Shown here: positions 541-52,058 of the stretch, piece after piece
How positions within the stretch are numbered: the stretch's first letter is position 1
How the letters are laid out: each line of letters opens with the position of its first letter
Assembly (NCBI GenBank): GCA_021234155.1
Contig: JAJEKV010000097.1
Span: 3,660,074 to 3,724,073, forward strand
Length of the DNA stretch: 64,000 nt
Reading direction: 5' to 3'
Source: Isoetes taiwanensis
Lineage: Eukaryota > Streptophyta > Lycopodiopsida > Isoetales > Isoetaceae
The notes under the pieces: generated by a model
What the model was told of the DNA's origin: nothing
The model's database searches: none
The model's input: the letters and a program-made list of their open reading frames with translations, nothing else
Program-made: the position numbers and the translations under genes

Positions 541-1430
541 AGGCGGCTCAAAAAGAGGTTAGTGTTCTGACTCTTGACCCAATCCCTCACGGTGTGTAAA
601 GTCTGCAGGGATCAATGTAGACTAGGTCACAATGGCTTGCCAGCACTGAGTGTGGGTAAGGCATGCTTTCGACACCGTGAGTGGTGTTTCACTTTCAGGT
701 GGATTAAGTGGGATAAAGGCGGTGGCCCTCTAGTCACCTTGGTCAGCATGGAGATCTACGGTGGGGTGATCCCTACCCTACTGGGGAGATGCAACCCGGG
801 GAATAGCCCCTTTGGCAAGCTATGCATCCCGGGTGGGCTACAGTCAGGTCCCAACACTCTTCAACCTACTGCGCAAGTGTGCCGCGGGGGAGGATGGAGT
901 GGACAACCCTAGGCCATGTTCTCATGCGGACAAATCCATTGTCATGATTACAATGCAATGAACTCCTAGAGACCCAAGCTTGTCAGGTCCTTCCCTGGAG
1001 TGCGAGGCCTTGGGTAGGAATCCCACTTGTATGCGTGCTTTGCTTTGTCTATCTGCGAGATGTTGATGTGCCACCACCCTTTCAAGGTGGATATGTGATA
1101 ATTATGTGTCTTGCATGTATCATTTAAGCTTCATGACTAGGGGAGACCACTGAGGGAGGCGGGTAAAAGCGGCCCCTTCACTCTTCCCCACTTTGGGACT
1201 TCGTTCGAACCGCGATGATATGTGGAGGGCCTGTGTCGGCTGGAGCTGGTATGGGGGGATGAACTCTGTTTGTATCTGAATTGGGTTGCAGAGTATCACG
1301 GTAAAGGGCGTCCGCGGTATTCTCGAGCCATGTTCTTGGAGACCAGAAACAAAAACAGCGGCCATGCTCCCGATGAGCCACTAGCAGATGGGATCCTCAG
1401 AGCCTGAAAATGGGGAAATGTTTTCTCATT
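541..1430. other. Continuation of gypsy 5' LTR or untranslated leader, no gene seen
   Basis: No recognisable coding sequence. This stretch has no partner after the 3' LTR copy, which stops matching at about 21540. It may be LTR sequence missing from the truncated 3' copy, or an insertion. The sequence is relatively G-rich, with short ORFs on both strands that resemble no family I know. Confidence 0.4.
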
Positions 1431-1499
1431 TTTGTGGTATATACTAAGCTAATAACAGTTAAAGTGAATTAGGAGAACACAAAAGACTAAAATTAGTGA

Positions 1500-1960
1500 G
1501 CAAAACCTTCAAAAGTAGGATGGTCTCACCGCGGCAGCCGAGGAGCAATAATGAAAAGTTCATTTTTTGAGTTGGAACTTAGCATTAATGAACATTGAAC
1601 AAAAACACCTTGAAAGTGATGAATTTTAGAAAAGTAACATAGTAATTCAATTTGAAGCTAGAAACTAGCTAAATTGGTATGTTACATTCTAAAACATATG
1701 CTTAGAAAAGTATAAAATTTAGCATCAAAATCACCATGTCTCACACTTCACGCCAGACCAAAAATGAAACTTTCATTATTGATGCAGGCGAGCGTATCGA
1801 GACCATGAGGTTAGAAAGGTCTAAATTGAGCCATGTAATAGGTTAATAAGTGTCTTGCCTCACCCAAAAGAGTAGTTTGAAATTTGACCTAAAATTGCCC
1901 ATCTATAAAATACACCTGATTTACTCCCCTTCCAATTTCTAATGTTCTTCCTTAGAAAAA
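1500..1960 (+). promoter_or_regulatory. LTR U3-like block with TATA box (first copy)
   Basis: Two GTCTCAC-start modules, near 1526 and 1738, each run into an AAAATGAAA(A/C)TTCATT core. They are followed by TATAAAATA at 1904-1912. The same arrangement (two GTCTCAC / AAAATGAAA modules then a TATA box) recurs at 3379-3840. This looks like the promoter half of a gypsy LTR, probably from a related element mixed into this one. Its function is inferred from layout only. Confidence 0.45.
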
Positions 1961-3947: not shown

Positions 3948-6900
3948 ATGGCAGCTGGCGACCCCGGCGATGGTACAATGCCGGTGCACATGCGTACCGA
4001 GACCAACGACATCTTCCAAACTTTTCGAGAAAGAGATTGATGTCCAAAAACAACCTTTACGCAAGCGCCCGGCATATAAACCGAGTTTTGAATGAGTTCC
4101 AAGCTAGGGTAGGTCAGGTCCCTAGTCGCGGCTTCCCCTTGCACGGGCTATTTTGTTCCCCGCCCATCCCTACAAGCAGCCTTGGTGATGTCCCGAACAT
4201 TGCCAAGTATTTGACCAACAAGGCCGCGAGAGGTTGCCAGATTACATGGTCCTCGACCAGTTGGCGACAGACCAAGTACTTTTCCCACCCGCCTTGGCCA
4301 TATTCCCTTTCCCATGAAAACCCAATGGGGGAAAACTCTGTTCCCTCCCATGGAGGTGGACCCCATAGCATCCTCAGCGGGACCGGATGCTTTTTGCGGT
4401 GGGCGAAGGGAGGAAGAAACCGGGAGAGAAGGAAGAATGTAGGAGGCAGAACTGCAGGGAGGAGTATACCGGGCTCCTAATCTTAAAAGAACGGCGGTAA
4501 GCGGAAGGGCTTACACAACTTCTCGAAAGCGGCCGCCAGACCGTGAGTCACTCACTAGGGCTAGGCATCCTGAAGCTAGCCCCCATCATCGTTGCGGTGA
4601 GGAGTACTACTCCTCAGGATATCCAGCCCTCTAGAATGCAGGGAGAGGGAGTTCTGCTTGACAATTAGTTTGCACCAAATGGCGGCGGCAAAGAATCGAA
4701 CAGGCGACTTCATCATCAGGGGAGTCTCCGGACTTCCCGCTTCAAGTGAGAAGCCGCATTAATCTATACAGGGAGTCGACTTGGGACATCCGTGCCTACA
4801 AAGAACATAAGGCAAAATAATGGAAGTTTCGAGAATCGCCATCCAAGAATCGGATGGGGATCCGCGGATAAGACCACGAGCATCTTGATCTTTGAGCTCC
4901 ACCACCACCACCTGCAAGAGGAGCAGGAATCGACGTCGGGCAGTTTCATCGACAATTAGAGACTACCAAGAAATCACTGGGTAGAGGTCGATGAATGCGG
5001 CTGGGAAGGCATAGAGCGGGAGGCCAAGCGGTGGAGAGTCATCGGCACACAATGACAAAGTGTCGTTGAGGTACTACCTCCCCTGGCTATTTGGATGGTA
5101 GAGAATAGCGTAATACAATCGCCAAATTCAAATCCGGGCAAAGAAGGAGTGTTTATGCTCATTACACTTCTCTCGGCTTTGGCATGCAAGCTCGAATAAA
5201 CTGCAAATGTCAACTATGATGTCTTAGTAAAGGCGATGGCACTTGACATCTTCGACCGCTGCCGTGCCCTACCGGAGAGCGGGGAAGATTGGCGATGAAT
5301 AGTGGCCTACCCTCCGACCCGCAGAGTAGAGGAATTGGTGACAAAGCCTTTGGGCGGGGCGTCAGCGAATGTCATGTCATAGGAACTGGGGCCTTCGGTG
5401 GGAACGGCCCAAGTTAAGAAATTTCTTGAGGATAACCGATCCTACCTAATGCCGATTTCAAGAATAGTTAAACTCTTGATCGGGAGGACTTGTATCTAAA
5501 AATATTATATAATAAAACATTTTGTTGTCAATATTAAACTACTTTGTTGACTGTATTTGGTTCAAAAATTATATCTAAGCAAATACATGAATACAATAAA
5601 GTAAATGAATCTAACCGTAAAGGCCATGGTCAATCGTGTATGCTGATAGAGAACAAAGAAACGTTCAAACAAAGCAGGGAGGCCCAACAAAGACTGAAGA
5701 GACCCCTGACCGGCAACCCATCCCAAGGAACCTATTAGAAGGGCATTTAGTCCCAAGACCCCGAAGAGGAGATGTCGCGAATGAGAACCGAACGGACGGA
5801 TAAAGGCTCTACCGGCGGCACAAGCATCATCCCAGACCTAACGACACCTCAAAAGTGGGGAAGGATAAGAAGAGGAGTAAGAGAAGGAGGTCCCCTAGTA
5901 CGTAGTTTTCTCCTCCTCGTACAGCTCCCGGACTCGGAAGTCCGAGAAAGAGGCCGAGCAAGTGCCGACCGTAGAGATGGCGCATGTAAGGACGCTTAAG
6001 GCATTGACTACCGTAAAATGGTAGACTTCGGCATTGGGCAAATATATGGAAGGCCGGAAGCTTGAGCAGTTCGACGCGAACAAAGTCAGGCTTTTAAGCA
6101 GAGGCATGGCTTTCAAGAGATGAGCTAGCACGCGGCAACGCTTACGGAATGAAAAGACAAGGACAAAGGCGGGGTGGCAACGTGCCCAACTTGGAAGGGA
6201 ACGCCGCTCGACTGGAAGGGTTATGCCAAGGCCCATGGGCTTAAGTAGAGATGGGTGCAGATTCAAGAAGTTTTCTAAAGCCTTCAGCCCATTACGTTCC
6301 ACGGGAACACAAGTCAACATGATGCAGCAATTTTGGCTGTGACGGCAAAAGAAGTTACAAAACAAAGTCGTGGCACACAGGGAGTTCATGAGACTAAGGC
6401 TGTATGTGCCGAAAATTGAGTGAAAAGCACGGTGGAGCTACATTGAAGGGCCCGAGCGAAGAGATCCCAAATTGTAAAGGCAATAGACCCCAAGGCGGTG
6501 GTATCCGAGGAAGGTAATCCAAAGCAATCAGCTTACCCGGATGAGGGCCTCAAATACAAGCGTAAAACAAATTGCACTACTAGGATAGAGGCAAAGCAAC
6601 GGGAGTTATAGCCCTAGGGCAGCAGCCCAAAGTCGAGCAAAATCCCCATATAGTAGCAACCGGGAGACATCGGGAAAGGAAGCGGGGTGTCCTTCAAGGA
6701 CAAGCGAGGAAAAGTCAAACTACAAGCAAAGTAGCATGCGATCCTTCTTAAGCAATACCCTCCAAAGAAAAGCAGGCGTGTATGGAGAAGCGGCTTTTCG
6801 ATGCTTTCAGCAAAGCCGCGAAGCTGCGAAATTGCCCTTTAGTCATGAGCTCGGGCCGCTAAGGGCGGAGTTGGAGTGGATGGGACACTCCGTCGGCGAA

Positions 6901-8287: not shown

Positions 8288-8291
8288 CCAA
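8288..8291. repeat. 4 bp target-site duplication CCAA, left copy
   Basis: CCAA immediately precedes the GGGTAAAAGC terminus, and the same CCAA follows the mirror-image terminus at 17506-17509. Removing the element and one CCAA re-joins the gypsy RT reading at an Ile-Gln / Trp-Pro-Ala-Pro junction, which supports the boundary. Confidence 0.85.
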
Positions 8292-8609
8292 GGGTAAAAG
8301 CATGAAAGGTGTATCGCGTACGTCAATCTTGAATTGAAGGATCAATTTGTGCTTTTTTGGGGTACATTTTAGATGTACATCAAGATACTATGGTTTGTCA
8401 TTTTGTGTCGTATGCAATGATTGCAAGATCATCCCCTGCAGTGCCCTCAAATTCTTGGTTAACCACCAACCACCCGAACCAATTCAATGGATCCGTCCCT
8501 CCCTTTTCTGAAATTCCCCCTTTCACGGGGGCTAACACCGAAGCGAATTCGAAGCAAACACATGCCAATTGAATCTACAAAAGAAATACAAATCAATTTC
8601 AATCTGTTC

Positions 8610-11600
8610 ATGGAGGGTGAGAATTCCAATGGAAGTGATGGTTCTAAGCGCAAGTATGCCGACATTGGCGGTGTTATGCCACAAAACAAATAAAAGGCGT
8701 GTTGGCCAATTCGGTGGATTGCATCCTGGCTCTTGGCAAACACTTCGCCCAGATCAAAGATTAGTTTTTGTGCTCGTTTGTTGCAAGATGACGAGCTTTT
8801 CTTTTTTCAACCTGTAATTGGAAATCCTTCCGTTATTGTTATGAAATCAATGATCGAAAAACTTGAAAGATGGGCTTCAAGAAGTAAAATACGCTAATAG
8901 CAAAGATAAATTGGTCACAAAACATTCTTGTTATCAATGATTGTTGGAAAAAAGGAGATATAAACAAGAATGTTTCTTCAAAATTGCTAAAAGATACGTA
9001 CCAAGAAATTTATCCAAAGTGCAGCAAGAAGAAGGAAGATAATGTCATTAAATGGAGCAAATGTATGGGCTTTGGCGGGAAGGATGCCAAGATCAAATAG
9101 AATCGATAATTCAATCAAATGTCGTTCGTGAATTTTGGCTTGATAATACCAAAAAAGTTTCACCAAAGGTTAGAGATGTCATGAAGAGAGAACACAAGCA
9201 ATACAATACCTTGATATCTCACGGGTTTGCTCTTGTAATTGAATCAATTCAGTTTGGAGATATGTTTTCTTCCAAAATTCTTTCATGACTTTCTTCTATA
9301 CATTCTAGTTACGTTCGAAAAGACACATTTAATGAATACACATGGTTTTCATGAAATGTATTGCATTTTACATTGTTTACATTTTTACATTGTTTACATA
9401 GTAGCGTAAATTCTTCCCGGTGATGTGCTATTAGGTACTTTTTTAGATGTACATCCATTAACACTTACATGTCCATGCAAACATTTTACATGCACTTGAA
9501 TATCAAAATTACATCATTTTACATTTTAGTGTACTTTCGGTGCAATGAAGCCAAACAAATCATACATATGTACATTAGTTGTACTAATATTGTAACATTA
9601 ATGTGATGTACTAATATTGGAACATTAATTAGATGTATATTAGATGTAAATTGGATGTACATTGGATGTCTGATAAGAATCGATGGAGCTGGTTATTAGA
9701 TGTACTTGATGTACATTAGATGTACAAAGAATGTATCAATGGAACTATGGATGGACATTTTATGTACATAGAACATACATTAAATGTACAATAATATAGT
9801 TCAATACTCTTTTGGCATCGGTTCGTTTACATCATTTTGCTAACATGGTCTTTAATGCTTTTGTTATTGTAGTCGAGCTTTATCAATGGTTTGTATATCG
9901 GAATCCCGATACCAAAATTCACCTTCGACGGTTCGGTATCCGAAACCTATTGCATAAGGAAATTGAAGGAAAAGAAACACATGTTGTTGTGTCAAACATG
10001 AGCAAGCGAGATCGTACAAAAAAAAGCCTTCAATGACATGAGGAGATCCCCACATATTAATTGCACTTCTTTTGCTGCGTGTCTGTGCATCCCAAAGAAA
10101 ACAATGGAGTATGTCAAGCAAACAAGAAGACTTTTTTGATAATGTTAGTATCTTGTGGAGGTCAACAGTTTTAAAGAAATATGTGACGGATGAATGGCAT
10201 AAACTAAAAATGCATCAAAGGTGAATGTGATGAATGTGGAGTGAAGAAATTAGACATCCGTCCAAGCGAGGAAGATGGAATTCAGAATGGGAATTTGGCA
10301 AGTATTTGCATATGTCAATGAACCATCCAAAAAGGTACATCGAAGGCTTAGATTAGTTGATCGAATGACAAAGCATCTGTTTTTGTTAAAGAACATGAAA
10401 AATCAGCTTGCTAAGTTCTACGATCATAACTTTCGGCCTGCTTGGCGGGAGCAAACAATTTAAAAAGATGTGTTGAGAAACTCCTGATAATAGTGTGTTG
10501 TCTCGTTGTTGACTTTTTCAAACTACACACATTGAAACCAGGACAGTGCAATCCCCAGCATTGGAATCTGATCAAATTAGTATTTTGGTCCATATTTCAA
10601 TGATGAAAATAGAAGGTAAGCTTAAAAAAGCAAAGTGCATTTCTATGTTTCAGATGACGGGAAGCATGACACTCATTTTGTGCGACATGGTTTTAAATTA
10701 CATTTGGGGTGGCTTAAGAATAATGGAGGTGGACATAAACCTTCATTATGTGTGGTCGGATGGTTGTGCATCTCAATTCAAATCTGCACGGGCATGGTAT
10801 GGAATCTGTAGATACCATGTTGAAAATATAAAATTAAAGTGATATGGAATTTCTTTGGATCTGCCATGGGAAAGGCACACATGATGGCGGTGGGTATATA
10901 TAGCAAAGTTGTGGCTTGAGAGCGGCAGAGAAAACAAATGGCATGCCGGTGTGAGTCTGTAAACAACATGCGGTTTTAAGGGCCAAGGAATCCGGATTGT
11001 GAAAGGGTGTTTTGGGAGGTTGGAAAAACAGATGTGAACAAAGAAGCATTCAATTGCAAGACTTTACGGTACTTTCAGCGGATACATTATGTGTCAACTA
11101 TAAACCCAAATAGATCCAACAAAGTTGCTATGCCTTCGTGCTTTTGTGATGCTTGCATGAACTTCAATTGGTTGAATTGTGAGAACATTAAACATTGTGG
11201 AGAATGGTCTCTAAAAGTTTGGAGCCACAGATCATATTGCCTCTGTGTTGAAGCTGAAAATGATGTGGATGTTTTGTATCAGGAGAGGGCGAGGCTGGTT
11301 TAGATGACACTTGTGGCTGCATTTGAGATGTATTTGTGTCTTTTTCACACCGGACAATGTGGAAGGTGTTTCATACTATGTTCTCATGTGCACCAGGGAA
11401 AAGCATGCATTGAAGAAGATTCAATTGATGACTATAGAAATGAATACTCTGGCGGCACTAGTGTCATTGAAGGACAATATTATGAACTAATCCCGGTACG
11501 CCACAATAAGTATAAAAAGCGCTTCCTACTAAGAATGTTTTGGTACTGCCGAGAATCTGTGATTGGGGTTCGATCCCATTCAAGAAAGTAAAACACAAAA

Positions 11601-11690
11601 ATTTGAAGGGGCAAAAGCCGCGACATTTCACTTGCGGATGAAGTCCATGAGACATTGTTATCACAACTTTCGGCAATTGTAGATGACATG
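8610..11690 (+). pseudogene. Transposase-like gene, decayed
   Basis: Coding pieces run in order on the plus strand with frameshifts. An ATG at 8610 opens MEGENSNGSDGSKRKY. A 9052-9288 ORF contains REFWLDNTKKVSPKVRD. After a TGTACAT-rich spacer comes a 9812-10036 ORF. Near 10745-10820 the text reads HYVWSDGCASQFKSARAWYG, followed near 10849-10890 by WNFFGS and GKGTHDGGG. A cysteine-rich end follows (11140-11190, with CFCDACMNFNW). I recognise the pair SDG..Q(F/Y)K and W(N/H)FF...HGKG..DG from large DDE-type transposase-like proteins of eukaryotes, but I cannot name the Pfam family with certainty. The Asp of SDG and the Asp of HDG are candidate catalytic residues. Frame breaks (for example around 10650-10720) mean this copy is inactive. 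Confidence 0.6.
9340..9800. repeat. TGTACAT-rich spacer 1 in the DNA transposon
   Basis: Dense, irregular recurrences of the palindromic hexamer TGTACA within ATGTACAT or GATGTACATTA contexts. The block lies between the N-terminal and central coding parts of the transposase-like gene, so it may be an intron that was invaded or expanded. Similar clusters occur at 11760-11850 and 15600-15990, and single copies lie just inside both termini. Confidence 0.75.
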
Positions 11691-11759
11691 GACTAAGTCG
11701 ATTTTGTAGTACTTTCCGAAATATTGTAATACTAAATGTTCATATAAAAGATAAGAACT

Positions 11760-11850
11760 GAAGAACTGGACTACTTGAAGTGCATTATGTACATCAATGT
11801 ACATAAGATGTACAACACATGTACATCTTATGTACATCATTATACATTCC
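11760..11850. repeat. TGTACAT-rich spacer 2 in the DNA transposon
   Basis: Short cluster of ATGTACAT, TGTACA and ATGTACATCTTATGTACAT between the 3' end of the plus-strand transposase-like gene and the 3' end of the convergent minus-strand gene. Confidence 0.7.
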
Positions 11851-12689
11851 AAAAAAATTTGTTAAGTGTAAGTTGATTAGAATTGAACATAAGAAAGTTG
11901 AATTGCATAAACATTAAAAAATAGTTTTGTCATGGCAAAGATAAGAAATGGACAGGTTTTCATGTACAAATGGTTGATATATTTACATTGTGGACATAAA
12001 TACAACACACAGAAAATGAGCATGGCCATAATTCATGACCAAAGCTTCAAAATGTCATTAGGAGCCTGATATCTTATGACTATTGCATCATGTCTTCCAG
12101 CCCTTAAAGAGGTGAAGAGATATCCTCTAAAGCGGTCCATGCGGTTTTCTATAGCCGCGTGCCAGCGGCAAACCTTCCATCCTACATGGCACGCATCTTC
12201 GGGACACGTGCCTTCCCCAAGGGTTGTGCAACAAGTGATTTCTTTGCCAATATACATTTCATGGTTGCTTTCGTTCCTCATAATTTTCAATATGCTCAAC
12301 CTTTTCCCAAAGGTCAAAACAACGATAGAGGCGATGTCGGTCCCCAACCCTATGTACTTGCGGCTTGTGTTGGTTTGTATTACCTACGGGTGCAATGAGA
12401 ACTCTATCTCTTAGTTTCTTAATAGTCTTTTTGTGTTTTAGTCCATTCATCTACAAAGCAAATGAAGATCACTTAATTATGTATACACACTCATAATTGT
12501 ACCAATAAGAAAGGCAATAAAAGCAATACTCAAGTGCAATGAACAAAAACTTTGATACATATATTCATAACATTTGAATTTGTACATCGAGTCAAAGTCA
12601 CGTACCAACAATGGGCGGTCGAGAGGCCAATAACATGATGGCGGTTCCTCCATTCCTTTACTCATTATATTGACTAAATTTAGGCAGCG

Positions 12690-13385
12690 TGAGCACCCAA
12701 GTTCTTTGCCATAGTTTGCCCGGCAAAATCTGTTCCACACCTTTCCGATATGCTATCTCCTGCATTAGTCATTGGATGCTCTTTCACATAAACTATACCA
12801 TCTTCAGCCATTTTGAATCCATTAAGCCATGGAATGAGCTCCATGACAAGCAATCATGTCACCGGCTAATATCGGTGTCCAAGAGAAAGGACATATGTAG
12901 CTTTCTATAGGATTCAAAGTGGATTTGTATCTTTCGTCGTCGATCAATCTGTATGTCCATAGTACTCCCGGGTACTCTTTCCATACCACCGACTAATGGT
13001 TTCACAAACAACCCCTTTTGAGGTTGATATGGTGTTTGTGTGGCGAGAGTCCAACATCACGCTCACGTACGTAAACAAACTTCAACTTTATGGAAAAAGC
13101 ATCACAAATATGTTCCACAATTGGGTGAAGATTTTTAGAAGTGAGTGAAGACCCGGATGGCAACATCAAACCCTTCTCTTACAAATGCTAACAGTGATGC
13201 TAACCACGGCTGCTTGATAAAAAACACGCTTTCCTATATTAAATTGAAGCTCATCTTTACGGATCATTTGGTATCTTGAGTTAATATTTTCATTCTTGTG
13301 CACACTCTTGCCCAACCACGGAATTTAAGTCAAAGATAATGAGCTTTCTCCCTGAATTAGATGATTCACTGTCGGCAAGAAAACA
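12690..13385 (-). pseudogene. FCP1/NIF-type HAD phosphatase domain within the minus-strand gene
   Basis: Reading leftward across three frames: KLIIFDLNSVV (13357-13325, the nucleophile strand of HAD enzymes), VFFIKQPWLASLLAFVREGF (about 13225-13165), SKNLHPIVEHICDAFSI (about 13140-13090), then SVVWKEYPGV (about 12990) and YRLIDDERYKSTLNPIESY (about 12950-12895). This matches the fold order of FCP1 homology (NLI-interacting factor) domains: nucleophile Asp, central helices, then the 'LIDD(S)P.K...NP.N.I' acidic motif and a 'YV..HP' tail (near 12790). FCP1-type enzymes need a DxDx(T/V) loop; here the first Asp is followed by Leu-Asn, as in many plant FCP1-like paralogues, so catalysis is doubtful even in an intact parent. 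Confidence 0.65.
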
Positions 13386-13799
13386 TTTGAGATTCACAAT
13401 TTATAATTACATTTCAGATCACACAATTGAGAAAACACATTGATAATTACACAATTGTTATTTTTTGCAGTGTAAGTGAGACAAATAAATTAATTTTTTC
13501 ATCACTTATTGAGTACAAAAGAAGCTTCGGACATGGCTCATACAAAGCTGTAATTTACAAACAAGTCAAAGAGACTATCTACCACATTGTAGGAACAAGC
13601 TGCTTGTATATTCATCTCGCCTTCTACAATTAATGCCTCCATTAGATGATCCCTCAGGTGACTTGGCATAGGCATCGATGAACCAAGCGGGTGTCATCAT
13701 GCATGGTGCACAAAAATATTAGAGGACTATACCAACAAATAACTAAGAGGAAAATAACATGTTCTACTTACAAAAATGGAGCTTGGTACATTGCATCAA

Positions 13800-14490
13800 C
13801 CACGGCATCTATGAATTTGTGCATGTAAGCCACAATGTACATGCAAGGGTTCTTTGGTACTAGTTTACGGCATTTTAGGGCCGAGAACACGGGGAGCATC
13901 AAAGTTCTTCCTACCATGGCTTAAGCCGGTTGGATCCGAGCATCATGTTATTGATCACAAGCTTATGAAACCCGCAAAATTGCAATGTGAGAATAAATCA
14001 AGCATAAGAAATTGCAATATGAGAATAATCAAATCATAAAAACAAAACGCGAAACTCATACTTATACGGACCAATTTAGCATCCAGGTACATAGCCTTTG
14101 GCCGGAGAGAGAGGATGCGTATACTTGGGCTAGCTATAGATGGAAAAGAGCTTTTCACTGGACCAGCAAGCACAAGTATTGCCAATGCCACATTTGGGCC
14201 TTGCAGAATTGGAACAAATATGTATTGGCATCTTGCAATCAAAATGCCATCCAGCCCTTCCTTTATGTTAGTGTTCTGTGCATCTGCCCTCCCCTTTCTT
14301 GAGGGAATTCACAAAATTCTGGAAGGTGTCCGGTCGAACCATAAAAAACTTGTGTTTCCAATCAGATGGAAGACCGCTACAAAGGTACCTGCACACAAAT
14401 CCAGAATACATATTAATACATAAGATGAGTGACTTAGGGAATGAAATAACATAAATATGTTGAAATGCTAGCCTACCTCCCATAGACATC
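13800..14490 (-). pseudogene. Ulp1-like (C48) protease domain within the minus-strand gene
   Basis: Exons read DVYG|RYLCSGLPSDWKHKFF, then CQYIFVPILQGPNVALAIL, then KAMYLDAKLV, then NPCMYIVAYMHKFIDAV. The order matches Ulp1/SENP-type SUMO proteases: an N-terminal helix region, an 'F(I/V)P(I/V)..HW.L' strand carrying the catalytic His, a 'DS' strand carrying the Asp, and a 'CG.(Y/F)(V/I)..Y' helix carrying the Cys. The Cys-MY motif is recognisable, but the His-Trp pair reads Asn-Val, so the enzyme should be inactive as it stands. The assignment rests on motif order rather than on strong identity. Confidence 0.5.
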
Positions 14491-15599
14491 TACCATCTTA
14501 GAGGTCAAGTCCGACTTCGGTGAGAACTCATCAACATCAATTTGAAAGATAGAGGGTGCAGGCTTAGGAGGACAGTCCCTATAAGGAGTGAATGGAACCA
14601 ACCTTTTCAGTCGGTTCACTAAACTGTACAAGGAAACAACAGCATTAGCAAAAGAATATATCTATTGTAATCAATTGTATATTACTCACCTTGTAAATTC
14701 ATCACCTGCTTCAGCATCTTCTGTGGACTGCTGCACCTTATTTGTTATCACATCAATATTTGCTTGTAGCTCCTCTTCCTCTTCCGGTTCCGACTCAGCA
14801 GGATCAGGATCAGCTTCCTTCACGGCCTGTGATCGTGTCCTATGTACAAAAAAATGTGGTTAATTATCATAAATCTGAGATGTTTAACAAAATTAGTTCA
14901 TCTTGGACATACCTCTTTCTTGGTGGTGGTGGCACTTTTTTGCCTGGAGATTTTCTTTTCGGAGGACATTTTTTTTGTTCTTTGGAGATTTTGCCTGTTT
15001 TTTTCCTCTTGGAGTTACATCACCAGCATTCTTTTGCCTCCTCTTTGGAGTGGACTCAACTACCAACTCAACTTCCTCTTCCCTGGTATCTCCTGGGATA
15101 AAATCTGGATCTGTGTCCTTTGTAGCTTCATAGCAACGGTCCGAAGCGGCACCCCGCGGATGATCTTTGAGACGAAGGTTTGAATCTTTCTTAGGAGCTT
15201 CTCCAATTACTAATTTAGCACTTGGTGATGAAAGTGTTTTACATTTCGCGATCATTGAAGGCTCTGCACCTGCAACTGCTTTAGCTTTCTCAAGTGCCAT
15301 CCTCTCTATTTCCTCAACTTCACTTGGCCATGTTCGAGGAGGCACTATTGCAGATGGTTCTATTACTGGCACTGTAAATGTCATTGGTGAATCTGGAGCT
15401 GGAAGGTTGAGGGTCTACGATTCCATTGCGCTTATGCTCAATAAAATCTATAAAGAGAGTCGTCTGAGATGGCTCAAGAACATCAGCCATTAAAGCTGCT
15501 TCTAGGATAGGAACAGCCTCATCTGCAAACAAACAAATGATCTAAATTTCAATAGACATAAAAGAACATGAAAACAGAACTTAAACAATGAGAAATATC

Positions 15600-15990
15600 T
15601 GGTACATTCTGCTTCAACATGTACATTTCATGTACATAAAATGTACCAAATGTACGTAACTACATTTAACTGTAGCCAAATGTACATGTACATGTTCCTC
15701 AATGTACATAGATGTACCTCAATGCACCCAGATGTACCCAGATGTACCCAGGTAACCAGTTAGGGAATGTAGATCTATATGCACATACTTATGAATCCAT
15801 CTACAGATGCACTCTACAAATAAATGCATGTACATCTATTTGCAGATGTAGACTCCATTAGATACATGTACACCTGATACAACTGCAGTCCATGCTCAAA
15901 AATAAAAGCATCAATAAACAAGCAAATATATGCCTATGTACCTCACATTCTGAGATGTACACTAAAAGTTATACATGTACAAGGAATAGC
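15600..15990. repeat. TGTACAT-rich spacer 3 in the DNA transposon
   Basis: Repeated ATGTACAT, ATGTACCCAG and GATGTAC motifs in a non-coding stretch between two coding blocks of the minus-strand gene, probably an intron. Same motif as the other two spacers. Confidence 0.75.
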
Positions 15991-17505
15991 AATGCCTTCG
16001 AAAGCCATACATGTAGAACTATGTAGATTACAATAACAAATATGAATTAAGAGAAATATAAGTTTAAATTAGTTGAGAAGCAATGCATACCTTTCACTGC
16101 GAGGGAAACCAAGCTTTGAATTCGAATGCCCTCATCCCGGATGCAACCTTTTATGCAATTACGTCTTTCATGGACCAGATAACACAAAAGCGAGAAGAGG
16201 CAATAAGCATCTGCGCATGGAGCTATAGCAACAAACCGGTTTTGCCAAAGCCTTGGCCACAGCAGTACATGAACCAATGTGATGAACTGCTCTATAGAAG
16301 TAGCTCCTCTGAGGGTAGGGCCTGGTCTTGAGAACAATAGGTCCTGCTCTCCCCATGAAATCCAAAATGCGTGAATGCCTTTCTTGGAACCAATTCAATG
16401 CAATTAAGTTTTTCCTTTGCTTGTTCAATTGAGATTTCATGCCTTTCAATTTCTTTAGTTGCTTCACGCAAACCAATTTCTAGCTTAGAAGAGTCTTGCT
16501 CTTTCTCATGTCTATTCATAACCAAGTCTTCCAACTTGTACTTCAACACTCAAGATAACTTGATTTCCGGCATTTTCAAATTCGGATCTCATCTATTTTT
16601 ACGGATCTTCATAGCATATCGTTCTACCCTTAATCCGGTGATGACCTTCAATGCATCCCTCCTTTTTCTTCCGGTGCTTCTACTTCATTCAATAGGTTAG
16701 TTTTCTCCTCCAACCCATGCTTAAGTAAGCTTTACTTTTATTGTGTCAACATCTGATCTAGAATAACCGGGGGCTCTAATATTACTTTGCAAAAAAGATG
16801 TCTGTTTGATATTTGAGGATTTACATTTGTAGGGACCTCTATAATTTCTGAAGTTTTTGGCAAGATCTTTGGCGGTCCTAGCCCGCCCATCAATCAACAA
16901 GCCGTCCCTTCAAGTGAAGAGCAAATGCTCGGCAAAATAGGTAGAAATATAATGTTTGTAACTGTTTCTTGCCATAAACCAATTCATAATATTTAAAAAT
17001 CATCTTTCCATGGATTCTCCTTCCTTGAATCCTCGTCTATTTTTTAGACTTCACCCCATACCTCGTTCATAACCATCTCTAGGTTGGGTATGTGGGCCTC
17101 TGCATGTTTATCACGGAGGTCTTTGGCTTGGATCACATCAGAACCCAAACGTAAACTCCTTGGAGGTAAGATTCCACTGCCGGAAGCACTGACTTCTTGC
17201 TTGGGCTGTGGTGATGAGCAAGCACTGATTTGGGGGCGTTTTGGGGCCATAGCTAGATGAAGAATTCGTGATCGGAATTCAAGCAGAGAAGGCAGGGGTG
17301 GGATAGTGAACAAGAGGCAAACCAAGAAAGAATTTGGTAAAAATTTCAAAATCCGATAATTGTGCGGTTTTAGTGGTGGATAGCCATTAATCATGGCGGT
17401 TACTAGCGGGTCATGATGACCGGTTATGCCAAAAATGTGCATTCGGTACATATGTATATGTACAAAAAGGGCTACATTTATAGACACCCTTTCATGCTTT
17501 TACCC

Positions 17506-17509
17506 CCAA
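17506..17509. repeat. 4 bp target-site duplication CCAA, right copy
   Basis: Directly follows the GCTTTTACCC terminus and matches 8288-8291. Confidence 0.85.
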
Positions 17510-20800: not shown

Positions 20801-21540
20801 TGTGATGTTCGATGCGATATCTCGGTCTCAAGGCGTATCTGCGTCTTGCACCATCAGCGTACCGCCATTTCAAACAATGTGTATGCGTAGCGTGTAACCA
20901 AGCAAGAAGCCCTAGGGGCAACTTGCAAGGGTGCTTACACTTAGCAATGTGCACACCTTAAACCTTTAACCCGACAAAGGCAGACCAAGGGTCATGGAAA
21001 CCCTAAACCTAGCGAGCCTATGTAAGGTAACCAAACCCTAATTCTTTCCTTTTAGTCCCACGAACCTTCCGAGCTCGATTTAAGCCCGGAGGAGTCAAAT
21101 GCAACTCCTAGATCTGCCCTTCCCCTAACTCGTCGAATTCTCCTTTCGGTAGCATCCCCAAGCGAGCAGCGATATGGGCCGGATCAAGAGGAGTGAACCC
21201 GAGGGGATCCCGGGTATTTAGTCGATTTAATAGCCTAAACCATATTCCAGCCATCGAACCAATAGGTTTAGCCTATTAAATTACCCTTAGTAGCCAAGCG
21301 GATCCCAGTTGACCTAACTAAAAGAACCTAACTCTATGATATAGATTAATTATTATTCTTTAGTTCTATGATGATGTGATGGGCCGTTGAATTACGTGGA
21401 CTCATTGTATTGGGAAGGGGTAGAGACTTAAAAACTTAGTAGTTGATGCTCTAGCTAGCCTCCTTAGCACCTTGTAGATTAGGCACATTGTGTACAAGAA
21501 CCACACACAGGTTGTGGGTGAAGGGACGGACCATAATTGG
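20801..21540 (+). repeat. 3' LTR of the gypsy element, 3'-truncated
   Basis: Starts TGTGATGTTCGATGCG right after the polypurine tract. The part from 20997 onward matches the 5' LTR at 1-540. Homology stops near 21537, where the sequence changes from GTGAAGGGACGG to unrelated DNA. So either the LTR ends here or, more likely given the longer TATA-bearing stretch at the 5' end, it has been cut by deletion or a later rearrangement. Confidence 0.8.
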
Positions 21541-38533: not shown

Positions 38534-38853
38534 GGGTAAAAGCATGCTAAGGTGTACCACTTTTGGAACCTGCAAAAGTACATACACTAGGTACTTTAGA
38601 ACTGGGTACTTTCTCATTTTTCTTTTCATTAGAACTAGTACAAAAGTTCAAAATAAAAGCCAAGGACATGTTAAATTCAAAGTTAAGATAAATATAATGC
38701 TATCGAAGGCCAAAATATATATAAAAGCTCTAAAATGTACCTTTTATTGACATATTGCATAGGTACCCAGTACCTAGTCCTGGGTACCTTTTTAGGTACT
38801 TTTTTGGTCACTAAATAATACTTTTTAAGGGACATCCTAACATGCTTTTACCC
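38534..38853. mobile_element. 320 bp MITE related to the 9.2 kb transposon
   Basis: Ends are GGGTAAAAGCATGCTAAGG and, inverted at the right, GGGTAAAAGCATGTTAGGA, flanked by TTAT on both sides. The first 13 bases (GGGTAAAAGCATG) equal the ends of the element at 8292-17505, and both have a 4 bp duplication. The interior has GGTAC-rich ends and no coding capacity. It is therefore a non-autonomous deletion derivative or cousin mobilised by the same kind of transposase. Confidence 0.9.
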
Positions 38854-46409: not shown

Positions 46410-47079
46410 TGAACGAGTTTGAGAGATATAAGAAACAGTCACTATTGTAATGTCTAGTAAGATTTAATACCAAATCAACTTACAACCTCAAGTCAATAAA
46501 ATTTTCAAGTTACAATCATGATTCAATAGGAAAGCCACATTATGGTCACTCATTTCCTAAGAATCAAACACCAAGTACCATAGGAAATGGAGTCAATAGT
46601 TTTTCAAAGGCAATTAAGCCATTAAACGTCCTTTAACCATGGTGCTTATATTGGATACTTATGATCGGGCATAAAATAAACTACTGTAGCAACATATAGC
46701 AAAGCATTCCGGCCCACGTTCCTCCTTGTTGCTCCCGATCTACCTATATACATCTTCTCACCCCCTTAATATAGCTTCCAACCATTCCTATCTGAAGAAT
46801 CGCCGGCAGTTTAGAGCCAGATAAGTCTTCTAAATTGAGCCATCTTCCTTTGCATATATCCCACAGGTCTGATCAAGTTTTCGAGCCTCCCGTTCAATTA
46901 TCCCACAGGCATATGTAAAATTTACGACCTTTGACCATTGCAATTTCGTAACATTATTTCTCTTTAAGATTTATAAGCATCTACCTTGTTCTCCATGTGA
47001 ACTTGCACACACTTGCTATACAATTTGTCTACTGAGTGCAACTCTGCTTTGCTCTGACTTACAAGCTGATAACCCTTCA
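46410..47079 (-). repeat. 3' LTR of the copia element
   Basis: In element orientation it begins TGAAGGGTTATC at 47079 and ends CTCGTTCA at 46410. A TATATAGG-like TATA box (about 46743-46750) and a nearby CTATATTAAG are candidate promoter signals. The first three bases TGA serve as the stop codon of pol. Confidence 0.95.
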
Positions 47080-51388: not shown

Positions 51389-52058
51389 TGAACGAGTTTG
51401 AGAGATATAAGAAACAGTCACTATTGTAATGTCTAGTAAGATTTAATACCAAATCAACTTACAACCTCAAGTCAATAAATTTTTCAAGTTACAATCATGA
51501 TTCAATAGGAAAGCCACATTATGGTCACTCATTTCCTAAGAATCAAACACCAAGTACCATAGGAAATGGAGTCAATAGTTTTTCAAAGGCAATTAAGCCA
51601 TTAAACGTCCTTTAACCATGGTGCTTATATTGGATACTTATGATCGGGCATAAAATAAACTACTGTAGCAACATATAGCAAAGCATTCCGGCCCACGTTC
51701 CTCCTTGTTGCTCCCGATCTACCTATATACATCTTCTCACCCCCTTAATATAGCTTCCAACCATTCCTATCTGAAGAATCGCCGGCGGTTTAGAGCCAGA
51801 TAAGTCTTCTAAATTGAGCCATCTTCCTTTGCATATATCCCACAGGTCTGATCAAGTTTTCGAGCCTCCCGTTCAATTATCCCACAGGCATATGTAAAAT
51901 TTACGACCTTTGACCATTGCAATTTCGTAACATTATTTCTCTTTAAGATTTATAAGCATCTACCTTGTTCTCCATGTGAACTTGCACACACTTGCTATAC
52001 AATTTGTCTACTGAGTGCAACTCTGCTTTGCTCTGACTTACAAGCTGATAACCCTTCA
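51389..52058 (-). repeat. 5' LTR of the copia element
   Basis: Same 670 bp as 46410-47079 with two mismatches seen by eye. As the upstream LTR in element orientation it would drive transcription. Confidence 0.95.

Follow-up and report, generated by a model that had tools for sequence, protein, structure and literature searches.

A Sola-like DNA transposon of Isoetes taiwanensis carrying an accessory gene with Ulp1-derived and FCP1/NIF-type parts

The 64,000-nt stretch of the Isoetes taiwanensis genome analysed here (hereafter the window, to which all coordinates refer) contains, at 8292-17505, a complete DNA transposon inserted in a Ty3/gypsy reading frame. This element, referred to below as the window copy, encodes a transposase on the plus strand and, converging on it from the minus strand, a spliced accessory gene with a Ulp1-derived part and an FCP1/NIF-type part; we attach high confidence to the identity of these three parts. 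The element is bounded by 18-bp terminal inverted repeats (TIRs), GGGTAAAAGCATGAAAGG, which pair perfectly (18/18 bp) between the left end (8292-8309, plus strand) and the right end (17488-17505, minus strand). Immediately outside, the target-site duplication CCAA is read directly in the sequence at 8288-8291 and 17506-17509. When the flanks are joined with a single CCAA, an open gypsy reverse transcriptase frame is restored (...PDPAKIEAKIQ|WPAPKNVHEVKSFLGLAGYY...), with no break at the join. The 9.2-kb transposon delineated by the initial annotation is thus borne out, also by the abundance of its ends: the terminal 13 bp have 2160 forward and 2092 reverse exact copies in the host assembly searched (1,658,258,908 bases, 1110 contigs), far over the 85 and 97 matches of a reversed-pattern control, so that the ends recur more often than by chance. 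The published assembly is given, in excerpts of PMC8566536, as 1658.30 Mb in 204 scaffolds and 909 contigs. For the RuBisCO large-chain gene of the assembly searched, the nearest chains are 4mkv and 4hhh, both from pea.

Among the end matches listed (100 places), at least 27 pairs lie 252-342 bp apart and at least four lie 8.9-9.3 kb apart. A perfect 4-bp duplication flanks 11 of the 12 distinct paired elements examined, the exception being L001, which has none. The search for full-length copies that the initial annotation had called for yielded four more (L009, L011, L012 and L043), which are 87.8-88.3% identical to the window copy from end to end, have duplications of their own (ATCA, TCAT, TGCC and TTCT, respectively) and all carry both genes, the minus-strand gene being at the same place as in the window copy. 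Their inverted repeats extend to 22 bp in L009, L011 and L012, compared with 18 bp in the window copy. Four further copies (L044-L047) are incomplete or interrupted; the transposase is found in L044, L045 and L046, whereas the transposase profile described below has no match in L047, which runs into other sequence from its position 5649. Reverse-transcriptase-like open frames adjoin copies L034 and L044. The window itself also holds a related 320-bp non-autonomous element (miniature inverted-repeat transposable element, MITE), which shares these ends and is flanked by a TTAT duplication (38534-38853, plus strand). One candidate, L010, has the same ends and an ATGG duplication, but its interior shows no similarity to the element and no transposase match, and it was dropped from the family counts; its 8.9-kb stretch of unrelated contents (L010 201-9136) is perhaps a large non-autonomous element.

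The homologous region of the plus-strand transposase spans 9961-11519, as delimited by tblastn (P0003, E 7.8e-18) and by a profile of 12 transposase homologues, which matches the window at 10296-11519 with a best domain E of 1.3e-32 and upholds the transposase-like gene of the initial annotation. Frameshifted open frames at 8610-9290 (plus strand, end approximate), beyond the homology profile, are probably the first coding part of the gene. Three motifs read in other copies (DFAENY, SDGC and HGKGxxDG) contain a conserved Asp, and the predicted fold is RNase H/integrase-like, in a model of middling confidence (predicted local distance difference test, pLDDT, 61.6); the catalytic role of these Asp residues is putative. 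A Pfam search of the 12 homologues gave no convincing match (three weak ones, the best with E 0.014 in a single member), and no relative of the transposase was confirmed among 35 pattern matches in genome_contigs and 18 in viral_contigs. Sequence searches of the PDB returned no match for the transposase, the Ulp1 part or the NIF part. Weak transposase-profile fragments lie elsewhere in the window on the minus strand, at 61215-61075 (domain E 0.0013) and 29412-29293 (0.0057), and may be related remnants or chance matches. In L046, a second profile match (867-1597, minus strand) beside the element fragment perhaps marks another related element.

The likeliest superfamily is Sola, also the first candidate of the initial annotation, an assignment made by description, from the 4-bp duplications of 11 of the 12 elements. 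Available parts of PMC10741241 describe Sola elements as having TIRs of 11-1124 bp, 4-bp duplications, a DDD-type transposase and a size of usually 2-9 kb, with some larger. The present element fits this description in duplication length, size and TIR length (18 or 22 bp), and its transposase, with three conserved Asp motifs, is a candidate for the DDD type. It is nevertheless a serious, if less favoured, possibility that the element belongs outside Sola, to another or unnamed DDE superfamily with 4-bp duplications. The lack of a convincing Pfam match for the transposase homologues points that way, as do the duplications, which are not AT-rich (for example CCAA, ATCA, TGCC and CACC), unlike those of the Sola2 examples in the consulted portion of PMC3627910; the agreement with the Sola description just set out argues against it. 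According to the same portion of PMC3627910, Sola2 elements can acquire a second gene, Fanzor1; compared by description only, the second gene here is different, combining Ulp1 and NIF parts.

The accessory gene is modelled with at least eight predicted exons, which begin at 17250 on the minus strand and extend to about 12600. Exon 1 (16091-17250) starts with an ATG at 17250 and encodes an N-terminal part with a coiled-coil-like stretch, and exon 2 (14913-15522) is basic, proline-rich and of low complexity; their boundaries were set by eye on open frames, with GT..AG borders for exon 2. The remaining exons were placed by alignment of copies, exons 4-6 with the help of relatives as well. Exon 3 (14690-14839, start set by eye) encodes an acidic linker. 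The Ulp1-like part begins in exon 4 (14477-14623), continues through exon 5 (14066-14388; the His end, CQYIFVPI..NVALAILVL) and ends in exon 6 (13772-13971; the Cys end, NPCMYIVAYM). Exon 7 (13583-13697) encodes another linker and exon 8 (12600-13368), placed also by the PF03031 match in copy L020, the FCP1/NIF-type HAD domain, the ends of both being approximate. Reading frames suggest a possible further exon at about 12449-12110 on the same strand. The donor GT is present after exons 3, 4, 5 and 6 in 30/30, 30/30, 31/32 and 35/35 copies. The acceptor AG before exons 4, 5, 6, 7 and 8 is seen in only 17/30, 15/31, 23/32, 27/35 and 29/38 copies; all of these acceptors are CAG, a triplet that is error-prone in this assembly (see below). 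Judging from this sequence, the product joins a coiled-coil-like and basic N-terminal half to a part derived from Ulp1 (C48) and to a HAD part of the FCP1/NIF type.

The FCP1/NIF-type part predicted by the initial annotation was recovered in an intact copy, L020, which matches PF03031 with E 2.6e-13 (50.4 bits against a cut-off of 21.8) over profile positions 1-157 of 160, and in the joined majority reading of the copies (47.1 bits). The window copy itself gave no PF03031 match, either in its 20 frameshifted pieces or in its joined reading. At least 153 matches to the NIF part are present in the host assembly, a lower bound, as 150 of 1977 first-look candidates were scored. Among the 30 loci extracted, 11 have NIF frames of 255-276 amino acids without a stop. 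The domain is the same as in FCP1/SCP-type HAD phosphatases (PF03031), with the difference that here it sits behind a Ulp1-derived part and in a mobile element. A second difference lies in motif I, which is D-x-D in canonical FCP1. HAD phosphatases need the second Asp, and its loss is damaging. In all 38 copies of the element motif I reads DLN, that is, D-x-N, and among more distant relatives it reads DLQ (L060 and L062) or DFN (L056).

The Ulp1-like part predicted alongside fared less simply: homology to Ulp1-bearing relatives holds, whereas the PF02902 profile has no match in the element's own readings (pieces of the window copy, joined readings and the majority reading). Searched with PF02902, the host assembly yielded 52 matches, from which 15 loci were cut out. 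The element's reading of exons 4-7 scores 92.4 bits against L058 and 75.9 against L051, whereas none of 200 shuffles exceeds 26.2 bits. Chance likeness is thereby ruled out, and because the scores so far exceed the shuffles, exons 4-6 can be derived from a Ulp1-type domain. In all, 10 of the 15 loci (L051-L055 and L058-L062) match this reading with E 0.007 or better; no match at E 0.01 was obtained for L048, which looks like an ordinary Ulp1 gene, or for L049, L050, L056 and L057. Single open frames pass PF02902 in L051 (4.6e-9), L055 (2.4e-9) and L062 (4.1e-8). L058 and L054 exceed the PF02902 cut-off in a six-frame search (31.7 and 33.4 bits), whereas one single frame of each (for L058, the longest) fails. 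L051, L054, L055 and L058 keep the His and Cys-Gly as well as the VPQQ block. In the element, the position aligned with the Ulp1 His is Asn in all 32 readable copies, and the Cys is present without a following Gly codon in 33/33 copies, with an extra base at this point in L018; base-calling faults near both positions make these readings unsafe.

Several diverged loci repeat the combination of the two domains. Five of the ten Ulp1-matching loci (L054, L059, L060, L061 and L062), together with L056, also match the element's NIF part with E 9e-7 or better; L054 falls narrowly below the PF03031 cut-off (21.4 bits against 21.8). In L054 the order is Ulp1 and NIF, followed on the opposite strand by a transposase that belongs to the same family; in L056 it is NIF, Ulp1 (PF02902, 32.9 bits) and then a transposase on the opposite strand. 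Their NIF parts are 35% (L054) and 29% (L056) identical to that of the element. Since L054 and L056 repeat Ulp1 and NIF in convergent arrangement with such a transposase, the two-domain gene is an old partner of this transposase lineage, and its retention in diverged relatives suggests that the second gene helps the element to survive. The mobility of the diverged loci is presumed rather than seen, because there is no transposase in the stretch around L058 examined and a search for terminal repeats in the L054 relative found none.

The apparent frameshifts of the window copy are probably nanopore errors and not decay, because they cluster at CAG/CTG sites. When exons 4-8 and the introns between them are compared with the majority reading of 38 copies, the window copy has 37 insertions or deletions (indels), all frame-changing, of which 28 fall at CAG/CTG; over all 38 copies, 337 of 539 indels lie in CAG/CTG neighbourhoods. 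With two bases added on each side, these triplets cover 24% of positions and hold 66% of the 155 hot positions among the element copies, and their core bases deviate in 15.7% of cells, compared with 2.6% at more than two bases away. A decayed pseudogene was therefore rejected as the main cause of the frameshifts. Transversions, both kinds of transition and deletions are all raised at these sites, a pattern that does not look like cytosine deamination. In excerpts of PMC8566536 the assembly is described as based on Oxford Nanopore reads (v9.4.1, Guppy flip-flop), with racon and pilon used for polishing. The errors are consistent with base-calling error at methylated CHG sites, the methylation being presumed. 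CAG/CTG depletion is stronger over the window's first 40 kb (ratios 0.44-0.74 per 8 kb) than over its last 24 kb (0.76-0.90). These observations suggest that mobile genes in a nanopore assembly can seem dead because of errors at particular sites, and frameshifts in repeats of the I. taiwanensis assembly should be checked before they are read as decay.

Selection on the accessory gene was assessed from the ratio of changing to silent variants. For NIF variants present in at least three copies, this ratio is 0.46 of expectation, compared with 0.93 and 1.31 in the shifted frames and 1.03 for single variants (Fisher p 0.008 for shared versus single variants, and 0.051 and 0.006 versus the two shifted frames); the loci were selected for their resemblance to the NIF protein, a possible source of bias in these ratios. 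When positions near CAG/CTG are left out and variants need be shared by two copies only, exon 6 has a ratio of 0.52, from 12 variants.

Taken together, the element is a multicopy land-plant transposon of the cut-and-paste type, with a Sola-like transposase and a convergent spliced accessory gene. The accessory gene is probably a helper of the element rather than a passenger, and within the family of the window copy we lean, by a little, towards action by binding rather than as an enzyme, because the NIF part is without the second Asp and the Ulp1 active site appears altered. In the reading that combines the two, which we hold with moderate confidence, the transposase would cut and paste the element, while the accessory protein would use its two domains to bind SUMO-conjugated and/or phosphorylated nuclear proteins, for instance the tail of RNA polymerase II, catalysis in this family having become weak or disappeared. 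Binding of this kind would work against silencing or guide the element to transcribed chromatin; the analogy is with the KIU/VANC proteins of MULE elements, which bear Ulp1. More speculatively, this lineage of lycophyte transposons may have retained, through deep divergence, a standard second gene with SUMO-protease-like and CTD-phosphatase-like parts (CTD, C-terminal domain), at least one family having turned both into readers of SUMO and the phosphorylated tail for finding or keeping open transcribed chromatin.

Several observations count against a conserved, non-catalytic helper. The ratios of exon 5 (0.67; shifted frames 1.15 and 0.64) and exon 6 (0.68; shifted frames 0.92 and 0.69) are uninformative on selection, because in each case one shifted frame is about as low. 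Without the positions near CAG/CTG, exon 5 shows no constraint (1.15), and the NIF ratio for variants shared by at least two copies stays at 0.47 but is no longer significant (p 0.097). The structure model of the NIF part is unusable (pLDDT 38) and that of the transposase is of the middling confidence given above. The 227 and 1946 candidates drawn from the protein collection included no relative of the accessory protein. Finally, the apparent loss of Ulp1 active-site residues could itself reflect a systematic base-calling fault.

The best-surviving alternative to the binding helper is a working enzyme, which would free host proteins of chromatin or transcription from SUMO, from phosphate or from both, and so let the element escape silencing. 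This is close to what the initial annotation had put forward, namely that the gene could change the SUMO or phosphorylation state of host proteins. As stated, that proposal is not supported; against it stand the Asn at the Ulp1 His position (32/32), the missing Gly after the Cys (33/33) and the DLN of NIF motif I (38/38), which relatives replace by DLQ or DFN and not by D-x-D. The intact His, VPQQ block and Cys-Gly of L051, L054, L055 and L058, and the PF02902 matches of L051, L055 and L062, speak for an enzyme, and since His and Cys are kept in these relatives, Ulp1 activity may persist elsewhere in the lineage. A further precedent is found in excerpts of PMC13317346, on Ulp1-bearing MULEs with a VANC-type protein that counters methylation. 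For the element at hand we consider enzymatic action rather unlikely.

Less probable again is capture from the host, in which case the Ulp1-NIF gene would be a passenger that plays no part in transposition. Plant transposons do capture host genes (PMC13317346, in the part available), exon 5 appears unconstrained, and removal of the error-prone sites leaves a weak NIF signal. A passenger would, however, have to account for the recurrence of the pairing, again converging on a transposase of this kind, at loci that share only about 26-35% identity in their matched parts, and for the stop-free NIF frames of 255-276 amino acids at 11/30 loci. That the Ulp1/FCP1 segment is a separate insertion within the element, for which no point in favour was found, is very improbable, as in the four other full-length copies the segment occupies the corresponding position, with identity of about 88% throughout, and none of the five aligned copies lacks it (no genome-wide search for copies without the segment was made). 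The outcome that the initial annotation had named as refuting, a genome-wide consensus without the minus-strand gene or a segment with a target duplication of its own, was not encountered, though no separate search was made for a duplication around the segment.

The best precedent for an anti-silencing role of the helper is provided by the Kaonashi/KIU MULEs (PMC13317346, as excerpted), which likewise are plant DNA transposons encoding an accessory protein with a Ulp1-derived domain. These Ulp1-bearing Vandal MULEs are described there as non-TIR elements, and MULE target duplications are given as 7-12 bp in the available parts of PMC10741241, whereas the present element has 18-bp TIRs and 4-bp duplications. 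It further differs from the Kaonashi/KIU elements in its added NIF/FCP1 part, its lycophyte host and its apparently altered Ulp1 active site. Our literature search found no paper reporting Ulp1 and FCP1 domains together in a transposon; what is new here is thus the union of Ulp1 and FCP1-like domains in one accessory gene, long retained by a plant transposon of Sola-like type. Ulp1 domains were reported earlier in plant MULEs, and a second type of transposon, with a Ulp1-FCP1-like pair retained through long divergence, allows the question to be asked independently whether transposons act on SUMO and transcription marks to avoid silencing.

Two pairs of direct repeats in the window may belong to retrotransposons. 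Repeats at 1-536 and 20997-21526, 83.6% identical, may be the long terminal repeats (LTRs) of the gypsy element that hosts the transposon, and 670-bp repeats at 46410-47079 and 51389-52058, 99.7% identical, are perhaps the ends of a young LTR retrotransposon.

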